A model generated the notes under the pieces. It was given only the letters and a program-made list of their open reading frames with translations. It was not told where the DNA came from and did not search any database. A DNA stretch of 64,000 nucleotides, taken from Exiguobacterium sp. (GTDB lineage: Bacteria; Bacillota; Bacilli; Exiguobacteriales; Exiguobacteriaceae). Numbering within the stretch: position 1 is the first letter of the stretch; every line of letters starts with the position of its first letter. Below, piece by piece: positions 19,607 to 26,052 of the stretch. A program made the translations under genes and the position numbers. Where the stretch lies: the NCBI RefSeq assembly GCF_020832205.1, contig NZ_JAFIFD010000049.1, positions 1 to 64,000 of the forward strand, in the 5' to 3' direction.

Positions 19607-21250
<1,644 letters not shown>

Positions 21251-21275
21251 GTCATACCCTCTAACGAAAACCATT

Positions 21276-21293
21276 CATCAGCGAAAGCTGGTG
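21276..21293 (+). other. GNRA-looped hairpin after groEL
   Basis: CATCAGC-GAAA-GCTGGTG forms a 7-bp stem with one G-T pair and a GAAA tetraloop, 25 nt after the groEL stop and just before the terminator. It has no T-run. It may stabilise the groEL mRNA 3' end, or be a structured RNA element at the edge of the island. Confidence 0.45.
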
Positions 21294-21298
21294 GCAAT

Positions 21299-21346
21299 AA
21301 AAAGGAGTATTCAGAACCATAGCATGGTATTTGAATACTCCTTTTT
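21299..21346. terminator. bidirectional terminator between groEL and the reverse transcriptase gene
   Basis: A 10-bp stem GGAGTATTCA / TGAATACTCC encloses a second small stem ACCAT / ATGGT. Five A precede and five T follow, so it works on both strands and insulates groEL from the minus-strand reverse transcriptase gene. Confidence 0.9.
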
Positions 21347-21373
21347 AGTCATAATATTTTCAAAAGAAAAAGT

Positions 21374-22876
21374 TCATATATTTACAAATGAAACATTTGC
21401 TTGTTTTAATTTTTTCCAATCACCTTTTAGTGATCCAAAAGGTAAAGCTTCGAAAATAAACAACCAATTTTGTTGTAGTTCGTCATCATTTTTTTGTAAA
21501 TCTCTAGCGTGAGCTTTAAAATTCTTAATTTGAGCATTATCTTTTTGTCTTACAGCGTACAAAAAGCTTAACAAAAGCAATATACAGTTATTACTTTCTT
21601 TTGAAACTACATAATCTAAATTCTCTATCATGAAATTATATTTTAAACTGAAATATATCGCATAACAAATTATTTCATGGTTATTTTGTCGGACTCCTTC
21701 TTCGTACAGAAGATTTGTGAAAGGGTAAATATCATTTTGATTTATTCTAAATGGAATAAACAGATGATCCTCGACTAAAGAAATTAAGTAGGGATAAATA
21801 ATGACCAAATGAAAAACACTATTTTTAAGATAATCAACAGCATTCTTAGTCAATGTTTGTTTAGATATAACTTTTATAGCATAGTTTAATATAGAAGCAT
21901 TATATTGATTTTCAGCCATTAAACTTATAGCTAAGTCTAAATATGCTTGTACATCTTTGTAATCCATATAATTTTTATGATTTCTATTTGAATATAAGTT
22001 TAATTTTCTTACCCAATCTTCAGTCGAAGCTATTGGGAGTGGGAGGATTTTAGTTTTTTTATGATTAAGGACTAATTTAAACTTTCTCAATTCAGTTGCT
22101 AAACTAATTAGAAATTTTTGACCTTCTTCATAACTAGAAGTATAGCAAGTATAATCATCAATATTTCTAATGAATTTCCATCCTTGCTGAACTAATGTCT
22201 GGTCAATACACACCAAAACAATTTCTGCTATAAGGTTTGAAGAATGGGGTCCGATTAAAATTCCATGTGTTTCCCCATGAGTTGTGTTTCTCAAATTAAA
22301 GTCAATTTGATCGTACCACGCTGTAGAGTTTGATTTACTTTGTTTAGCTAAATCTTTCCCAACCAAAGCCCAAGGTACAGAATGTGAGTAAATACTTGGA
22401 AAGCATGTTGAGATATCTGCATTAACAACATATTTATTTCCGATAACTAAATAGTCGGTAGGAGTATCATCTGTTTTATAGCTTTTATAGTTCATTTCAA
22501 ATAAAGAATGTGATTTTTTTTTCTTTCTTAAATGTATTCTGCTAGTTTTATGTATTTCGTTTTGAGTTTTTTCTCGGAAATGTAATTGGATTCCTCCCCA
22601 GTTATCAGCAAGCGATTTACAGAGTTTATAGTATGACATAGGAGTAGGTATCCCCATTCCTCGAGGAATATTTATATTACGCATCGCCTCATAATATATG
22701 AATGATTGCTTTGGAGAAGTATTTGAAAAAGTTGGGTTAGTTGATTTGCAGAAGTCTAAAAAGGGAATAGATGTAAACATGGGAGGTAGCTTCTCGTTAA
22801 ACATTCCATATCCAAGTAGTCCATCAAATAGCTCAGTATCGTCAATTTCATCAAAAAAATCTGAGTAACGTTTCAT
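21374..22876 (-). CDS. reverse transcriptase of the Abi/unknown-group (defence-associated) type (500 aa)
   Basis: All core reverse transcriptase motifs are visible. Motif A is NADISTCFPSIY with Asp154, motif B is GILIGPHSSNLIAE (about 205-218), motif C is RNIDDY with Asp240-Asp241, and motif D is LNHKKTKI (about 270-277). Upstream, IPTPMSYYKLCKSLADNW fits the N-terminal region of unknown-group/DRT and Abi-type enzymes. The last 190 residues are predominantly helical with no known catalytic motif. There is no maturase or nuclease domain, and no retron msr/msd or group II intron RNA was seen. The start has AGGAGG upstream. The gene is far more AT-rich than its surroundings, a sign of horizontal transfer. 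A role in phage defence is inferred from the family. Confidence 0.88.
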   Translation of the reverse strand: MKRYSDFFDEIDDTELFDGLLGYGMFNEKLPPMFTSIPFLDFCKSTNPTFSNTSPKQSFIYYEAMRNINIPRGMGIPTPMSYYKLCKSLADNWGGIQLHFREKTQNEIHKTSRIHLRKKKKSHSLFEMNYKSYKTDDTPTDYLVIGNKYVVNADISTCFPSIYSHSVPWALVGKDLAKQSKSNSTAWYDQIDFNLRNTTHGETHGILIGPHSSNLIAEIVLVCIDQTLVQQGWKFIRNIDDYTCYTSSYEEGQKFLISLATELRKFKLVLNHKKTKILPLPIASTEDWVRKLNLYSNRNHKNYMDYKDVQAYLDLAISLMAENQYNASILNYAIKVISKQTLTKNAVDYLKNSVFHLVIIYPYLISLVEDHLFIPFRINQNDIYPFTNLLYEEGVRQNNHEIICYAIYFSLKYNFMIENLDYVVSKESNNCILLLLSFLYAVRQKDNAQIKNFKAHARDLQKNDDELQQNWLFIFEALPFGSLKGDWKKLKQANVSFVNI

Positions 22877-22955
22877 TTAAAAATGCCTCCTGATTTAAAA
22901 ACATGTCTTCCATTTAACGTGGTAATATTATCATAAAAAAGGGAGAGATTAATTT

Positions 22956-23321
22956 ATGGAAGTGCAATTAAGCGAAAAAATATTTATCGTTATTGAAAAG
23001 TTAATAGGTTTATCACATCAAAGGGAAGAAACTTATCAATTAAATAAACATGCTGAGGTTGAAAACTTAAGAGGCCAATTAGAATCTATTCTAAATGATT
23101 TAACTTTAGATGAAATTATGATGATTCAAACTATAATGTATATGGGTCGAGACCAAGATTATGATGATACTAAAAGTAGATTAGAAAATTATGAAATTAA
23201 ACTAAAAGAACTTACTCCGGCGAAAAGAAAAGATATTGAAATCTATCAGATAGTTTCAAAAATGCCATTAGGGGTCTATTTAACAAATGGTATATCGATT
23301 ATCCGTAACGAAAAGTTTTAG
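22956..23321 (+). CDS. small helical protein resembling DUF3775 (121 aa)
   Basis: The protein is mostly alpha-helical and hydrophilic, with no membrane segment. The stretch IQTIMYMGRDQDYDD (about residues 53-67) and the C-terminal SKMPLGVYLTNGI resemble, by eye, the conserved parts of DUF3775 proteins, whose function is unknown. GGGAGAGA lies upstream of the ATG. It shares the low-GC composition of the reverse transcriptase gene and is divergent from it across a 79-nt spacer, so the two probably arrived together. The family call is tentative. Confidence 0.65.
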   Translation: MEVQLSEKIFIVIEKLIGLSHQREETYQLNKHAEVENLRGQLESILNDLTLDEIMMIQTIMYMGRDQDYDDTKSRLENYEIKLKELTPAKRKDIEIYQIVSKMPLGVYLTNGISIIRNEKF

Positions 23322-23346
23322 AAATATCCAATATTCAGACGAATGT

Positions 23347-23384
23347 CGAACCAAATCATAAAAAGTGATTTGGTTCGTTTTTTT
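23347..23384 (+). terminator. terminator of the 121-aa gene
   Basis: A perfect 12-bp stem CGAACCAAATCA / TGATTTGGTTCG with a 7-nt loop is followed by seven T. It marks the downstream edge of the AT-rich island. Confidence 0.92.
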
Positions 23385-24090
23385 AATCCGTCTGTTTCCG
23401 GTTATACATCACAATACTTCCGACGAACACAACGAGCGCCCAGGCTGACAGAATCACAAGCTCCACCCATGTAGAGCCGAGTCCAGCCCCCGCCTCGATT
23501 TGATGCGCGAGGTCAATCAAGACGACGTTCGGCAAGTACTTGAGGAGACCGATGATGGAGAAGCGGTCCTCGTACACCGACAACATCGGTGAGAACGAGA
23601 AGAAGAAAAACGCCGGCATGACAATCAGCGAGGCTTCCATGACCGTCTTCGTCATCAATCCGAGAATCGTCCCAATCCCGATATAAAAGAACGTCGAGAC
23701 GATGAGTGCGAGTGAGATGACGAGCAGGTTCGCAGGTCTGTATCCCATGATGAAGGCGCACGCTGCAATCAAGACGAGTGTCGTTACGAACGTGAGCGCA
23801 CTCTTCCCAAGCAGGATATCGAGCGTGCTGGCCGGCGACAGCATCAACCCTCGGAGTGTATTCCTTTCTTTCTCTTCGGCAATCAACGCGCACTGGACGA
23901 ACGTCGCGACGAGACTGAACGTGATGTTGATGACGAAGTACGTCACGTCGATGCCTCCTCCACCGAGCTGTGAATAGAAGACGGCGAAGAACAGCGGCAT
24001 GATCAATGTCGAGGAGACGAACAAGTTCCGCGACAAGTCTTTATAGTCTTTCTGGAAAATGGCAAGTGCCCGTTTCATTGAAAATGTCAT
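23383..24090 (-). CDS. ABC-2 type transporter permease (235 aa)
   Basis: Six hydrophobic helices are predicted, with a cytoplasmic EEKERNTLRGLMLSPA loop near residues 70-85 that is typical of ABC-2 export permeases. It would pair with the ATPase encoded just upstream, whose stop overlaps its ATG (ATGA), to form an exporter of unknown substrate. GGGGAGGA lies 8 nt before the start. The regulator gene at 25066-26052 is the probable controller. Confidence 0.88.
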   Translation of the reverse strand: MTFSMKRALAIFQKDYKDLSRNLFVSSTLIMPLFFAVFYSQLGGGGIDVTYFVINITFSLVATFVQCALIAEEKERNTLRGLMLSPASTLDILLGKSALTFVTTLVLIAACAFIMGYRPANLLVISLALIVSTFFYIGIGTILGLMTKTVMEASLIVMPAFFFFSFSPMLSVYEDRFSIIGLLKYLPNVVLIDLAHQIEAGAGLGSTWVELVILSAWALVVFVGSIVMYNRKQTD

Positions 24091-25065: not shown

Positions 25066-26052
25066 CTATTTCAGACCAATCATCGTCTTCAATTCGGCCA
25101 TTTTCGTCTTCGAGAGCGGAATCGTCGTCTTCGCCGAATCATCGAGCACGAGACTGAAACTGTTCTTCGTGTACGTGATGACTTCTCGCACCCGTTGCAG
25201 GTTGACGATGTACGATCGATGGCAACGGAAGAAACCATATGGAGTCAGACGGGTCTCAAGCTCGTTCATCGTGAAGACGCTCGGGAACTGTTCGGACTGA
25301 CTGTGCAGCACGGATTGTCCGTCTTGGCTTTCGATATAGTCGATTTCCGGTGGATCGAGCAAGACGATCTTCTCGTTCACTTTCGTCGGAATCTTCTCGA
25401 AGCGGACGTGCATGACCTCTGGCGTAACGTCTTCATTTGTATCCGGTTCATCTGGTTCAACGTCGAGTAAGCGCAACTGTCGATGGTCGATGCGATAGAC
25501 GGTCGACGTGACGAACAGGGCGCTCTCCATGTTGCTCGTCAGGAACAGGATGGCTTTTTGTTGTTGCTTTAGTTGCATTAAGACGGTCGAGAACAAGTGC
25601 CGTGTCTCTTGATCGACGTTTTGATCCGGTTCTTCGAGGACGTAGATGTCGCGATTCTGTAGCAGCAGTGCCGCGTATTGAACGCGCCGGACGAGTGACA
25701 GGTTGAGTCGGTTCAAGCGTGTATTCCGATATGGGGTGAGTTGAACGGTTTGAAGGACATCATCCATCGATTCCATCGATTCGTAAAGCGTATGTGTGAA
25801 ACGCAAGTACTCCTCTACCGTCAGCCGGTCATATAACCCATCGCGGATGGAGAAGACTGAGAGCGTACGATTCGCTGTATCGATGGTCCCAGAGTAGTTT
25901 GCGTGCGCGTTCGTCAATAATGCGAACAATATTTCCCGGGAAGTAACGCCGCAATGAATGGCTGCGATTTCACCCGGATTGATGATGAAGGAGATATTTT
26001 CAAGTATGAGCGTGTCTTGTTGGCGAACAGAGACGTTGTCAAAAGTAAGCAC
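25066..26052 (-). CDS. regulator fusing a degenerate ABC ATPase domain to a LytTR DNA-binding domain (328 aa)
   Basis: Residues 1-200 have the ABC ATPase layout, but the Walker A loop reads HCGVTSREI where GxxGxGKS/T is expected. The signature is NLSLVRR and the Walker B is YVLEEPDQNVD. ATP hydrolysis is therefore unlikely. Residues 225-328 form a LytTR domain (IDYIESQDGQS, FFRCHRSYIVNLQRV, IPLSKTKMAELK). Such fusions occur near ABC-2 exporters in Bacilli and probably regulate them. GTG is the start, with GGGAGGG just upstream. It lies 130 nt upstream of the exporter operon on the same strand. Confidence 0.85.
   Translation of the reverse strand: MLTFDNVSVRQQDTLILENISFIINPGEIAAIHCGVTSREILFALLTNAHANYSGTIDTANRTLSVFSIRDGLYDRLTVEEYLRFTHTLYESMESMDDVLQTVQLTPYRNTRLNRLNLSLVRRVQYAALLLQNRDIYVLEEPDQNVDQETRHLFSTVLMQLKQQQKAILFLTSNMESALFVTSTVYRIDHRQLRLLDVEPDEPDTNEDVTPEVMHVRFEKIPTKVNEKIVLLDPPEIDYIESQDGQSVLHSQSEQFPSVFTMNELETRLTPYGFFRCHRSYIVNLQRVREVITYTKNSFSLVLDDSAKTTIPLSKTKMAELKTMIGLK

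Follow-up and report, generated by a model that had tools for sequence, protein, structure and literature searches.

DRT4, the closest described system to the reverse transcriptase studied here, is described in reviews as a single-gene system that synthesizes random single-stranded DNA in a template-independent manner and whose toxicity is triggered when a phage DNA-binding protein shields the 3′ end of the DNA product (PMC13213688, PMC13314766). In the window, i.e., the entire 64,000-nt stretch of Exiguobacterium DNA analyzed here, a Drt4-like reverse transcriptase gene is divergently oriented to a small gene for a DUF3775-like protein, and these two AT-rich genes lie between hairpins (Table 1). 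A sequence-only reading had singled out positions 22877–23321, which comprise the 79-nt gap and the small gene, and had proposed the latter as a partner of the reverse transcriptase. Our analysis does not support a fixed pairing and points to two genes that are probably no more than neighbors in one cargo cassette at a defense hotspot.

Table 1. Features of the locus between groEL and the ABC transporter permease gene in the window.
Feature	Coordinates	Strand	Properties
groEL	19610..21250	+	Left flank of the variable site
Cargo interval	21295..23380	.	Between the alignable groEL tail (to 21294) and the permease end (from 23381)
Left terminator-like hairpin, bidirectional	21298..21347	.	Long inverted repeat, -26 kcal/mol, flanked on each side by A and T runs
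Drt4-like reverse transcriptase gene	21374..22876	-	500 aa, full length; candidate catalytic D154, D240/D241
Gap between the divergent genes	22877..22955	.	79 nt, GC 26.6%
DUF3775-like gene	22956..23321	+	121 codons, 121 aa; acidic (pI 5.1), all-helical
Right terminator hairpin	23347..23377	+	13-bp stem, then T run
ABC transporter permease gene	23383..24090	-	Right flank of the variable site

The layout given by the sequence-only reading was borne out at each point. The gap between the divergent genes measures exactly 79 nt, both genes share an unusual AT content (27.9% GC for the small gene and 29.8% for the reverse transcriptase gene, compared to 50.8% for the window), and both are located between two terminators, the left one of which was not listed by a short-loop terminator scan. 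The cargo interval holds exactly these two genes. Within the gap, the reverse transcriptase gene is preceded by an AGGAGG-type ribosome-binding site and the small gene by an AGGGAG site, while a scan of the gap revealed no consensus sigma-70 promoter and no Rfam RNA families were found near the locus.

The reverse transcriptase matches the PADLOC Drt4 model PDLC02178 with an E-value of 7.8e-207 and 686 bits (residues 1–499 on profile positions 2–501 of 506); the next-best PADLOC group is Drt6 (4.1e-86), and UG30 and AbiK are also far behind. Because the protein misses the NCBIfam Drt4 equivalog cut-off (384.6 bits compared to 450 bits), we refer to it as Drt4-like. Candidate catalytic aspartates are present in the motifs NADIS (D154) and NIDDY (D240, D241), and they are also found in the nearest relative detected, a protein with 50% identity over 495 residues that matches the same PADLOC model. 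A single-protein scan of genome contigs with the reverse transcriptase and a search of viral contigs with a two-sequence reverse transcriptase profile yielded no match.

Homologs of the small protein with 26–34% identity share the conserved motifs QTxMYxGRDxDYD and KxPLxxYLxxGL, indicating that the small gene is truly coding. When compared to Pfam DUF3775 (PF12616), the protein covers most of the profile (positions 3–68 of 73) at an E-value of 0.042 and 14.2 bits, below the gathering score of 27 bits. All nine aligned members of the small family match the DUF3775 model weakly (best E-value 0.0025), and two plasmid homologs and one phage homolog are named DUF3775 proteins in public records. The data thus support the protein as a distant relative of DUF3775: the profile search suggested along with the original family assignment found the match along the domain, and the kinship stands through the weak matches of all nine aligned relatives, but membership at the Pfam cut-off does not. 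The helical nature of the protein, likewise predicted before, is reflected in a confident AlphaFold2 model with six helices (mean pLDDT 90), which had no Foldseek match in PDB or BFVD at an E-value of 0.001 or better. FliS-type flagellar chaperones, the best VIA-align matches (Z 6.0), were rejected as evidence, since any helical bundle scores in this way, and matches to Pfam Phage_min_cap2 and a PHROG tail fiber were rejected as weak and absent from relatives where tested. No DNA-binding fold was recognized in the profile, Foldseek, and VIA-align comparisons.

Comparison of the window (21251–23382) with loci L054–L070 showed that the groEL–permease gap is a variable defense site across Exiguobacterium species; no description of this site was found in an Exiguobacterium genomics paper (PMC13233415). 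Conservation of the groEL tail in other Exiguobacterium genomes extends to the equivalent of position 21294, and that of the permease end starts at position 23381 in those genomes in which the gap could be traced. In the window, the conserved groEL hairpin present in several relatives is interrupted after the left arm, and a separate hairpin is supplied by the cargo. The gap spans 632 nt in one relative and 825 nt in another, with a maximum of about 12 kb among the others. Relatives differ in what the gap carries, and most of it is defense-related: L064 has SIR2 and HerA, L063 and L068 a type I methyltransferase gene, L070 HamA and HamB (Hachiman), and L061 the Wadjet genes JetA and JetC, copies of which with 81–96% identity occur in L062 and L068. 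A methyltransferase is found in L066, an LmuB-like ATPase in L054, and a kinase in both L056 and L059. Where measured, the cassettes at this site in other Exiguobacterium have a GC content of 30–36%.

Next to the cargo, L056 (3490–3753), L064 (3952–4662), and L070 (5230–5901; all coordinates oriented with groEL first) each have a further copy of the ABC permease gene, either partial or full, and these duplicated permease ends suggest that exchange took place through recombination in the flanking sequences. The extra copy in L064 shows 89% identity to the permease gene of the window, compared to 79% for the copy at the usual place, which suggests transfer between species. By eye, we also noticed an ATP-grasp-like peptide-maturation gene pair without a PADLOC match at the groEL site of another species (L055, 838–2813) and, in the window (25066–26052), an ABC-type ATPase that seems to be fused to a LytTR-like DNA-binding domain and adjoins ABC transporter genes.

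Searches recovered homologs of the small gene from a Sporosarcina plasmid, Bacillus phages and plasmids, and four IMG/VR contigs, as well as from the genomes of Cytobacillus, Planococcus, and Sedimentibacter; a single-protein scan of viral contigs gave no match. Searches of other genomes in its genus, its order, and its sampled class did not detect the gene. None of the seven other lineages, which comprise phages, prophages, phage-plasmids, and mobile regions, has a reverse transcriptase nearby. On the Sporosarcina plasmid, the DUF3775-like gene adjoins DNA polymerase III genes, and in Bacillus phages and plasmids its neighbors are NAD-salvage genes; repressor-like genes, tyrosine recombinases, and a plasmid region are found next to other homologs. 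In two different prophages (L020, 5878–6294; L025, 5851–6249) the gene lies between regulator-like and HNH/terminase genes, and this repeated position might hint at a phage role of the small gene. In a Bacillus amyloliquefaciens plasmid (L022, 2642–3032), it is present in three frame-shifted pieces.

We searched all retrieved loci with profiles built from nine small proteins and 11 reverse transcriptases, and only the window's own locus carries both genes. Among 10 other genomes with related reverse transcriptases of the Drt4, Drt6, UG30, and AbiK groups, a DUF3775-like gene was found in none (0/10 anywhere at an E-value of 0.001), and the genome of the 50%-identical enzyme lacks one within 5 kb as well as elsewhere. 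No Drt4 match at 1e-10 is present in the whole genomes or records from which eight small-gene loci derive, and neither gene occurs in the 18 other Exiguobacterium genomes searched. The neighborhood survey that had been suggested for the proposed partnership therefore detected the pair in the window only, without recurrence in independent genomes, although it took in one close relative of the reverse transcriptase and a pairing within a narrow clade is beyond its reach. Homologs of the reverse transcriptase occur without the small gene and the small gene occurs with unrelated neighbors. Both outcomes had been named in the sequence-only reading as refuting the partnership, which was not upheld; that the two families are distributed separately speaks against a fixed pairing.

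Shared AT content and tight spacing do not indicate a partnership at the groEL–permease site, because any cargo there shows both; unrelated cargo at the site in other Exiguobacterium is equally AT-rich. We consider it likely that the two genes were brought together as neighbors in one cassette, with the small gene as independent cargo. The reverse transcriptase would work by itself, as published for DRT4, and the DUF3775-like gene, which has relatives in Bacillus-group phages, prophages, and plasmids, would be independently mobile. It probably serves phage–host or phage–phage conflict, i.e., superinfection immunity or host take-over, and probably arrived at the groEL–permease site as phage- or plasmid-derived cargo rather than as a dedicated Drt4 subunit. 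That the small gene is instead an unexpressed remnant of an earlier insertion appears quite unlikely: recombination debris such as the duplicated permease ends is common at this busy site and a broken relative exists on the B. amyloliquefaciens plasmid, but the reading frame in the window is intact, the gene is equipped with a good ribosome-binding site and a terminator of its own, and the conserved residues of the family are retained. The groEL–permease gap of Exiguobacterium is in any case a place worth searching for defense genes.

Against the explanation as neighbors only, it can be held that the reverse transcriptase has a single close relative in the comparison (n = 1), that the other cassettes at the site seem to be one complete system each (SIR2–HerA, HamA–HamB, Wadjet), and that the 79-nt divergent layout would suit co-regulation. 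Because the cassette consists of only two genes and other cassettes tend toward complete systems, a local functional link between the small gene and the reverse transcriptase is possible. The small protein could be a lineage-specific accessory of the Drt4-like enzyme, i.e., a regulator, brake, or sensor transcribed from a shared promoter region in the gap. Such a role would fit the divergent genes in a cassette without other genes, their two-hairpin frame, and the multi-gene defense systems at the same site in other species; we nevertheless regard it as unlikely, given that DRT4 is described as single-gene, that the small gene is missing from the nearest relative and from nine further genomes carrying related reverse transcriptases, that the small family otherwise occurs without a reverse transcriptase, and that the protein has no recognized DNA-binding fold. 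Relatives of the small gene occur in phages, and the trigger of DRT4 is a protein encoded by phages, which would be consistent with a captured phage gene acting on this trigger, e.g., as a decoy or antagonist of the DNA-stabilizing phage protein, but the small protein has no Foldseek match at the above threshold and we consider this very unlikely. If the two genes were a true pair, a single-gene antiphage enzyme would be seen acquiring a control protein from phages. A phage-derived DUF3775-like protein that tunes the toxicity or phage trigger of a Drt4-like enzyme would represent the first two-gene DRT4-type system, an outcome that we deem improbable.

Like the SIR2–HerA, HamAB, Wadjet, and type I restriction-modification cassettes, the window cassette occupies the groEL–permease insertion site and is similarly AT-rich, and among the cassettes inspected, it and others at this site have their own terminators at the right end. 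Whereas those cassettes carry well-known systems, the one in the window combines a Drt4-like enzyme with a DUF3775-like gene. The small protein resembles Pfam DUF3775 in matching most of the profile and in having relatives that bear this name in public records, but it scores below the threshold and is part of a divergent phage/plasmid branch from Bacillota that has an additional helical portion at the N-terminus. With DRT4 (UG15), the reverse transcriptase shares a full-length match to the PADLOC Drt4 model, the candidate catalytic aspartates, and a seat in a variable defense site; in contrast to DRT4, it has a sub-threshold NCBIfam score and is accompanied by a divergent small gene, where DRT4 is described as a single gene.
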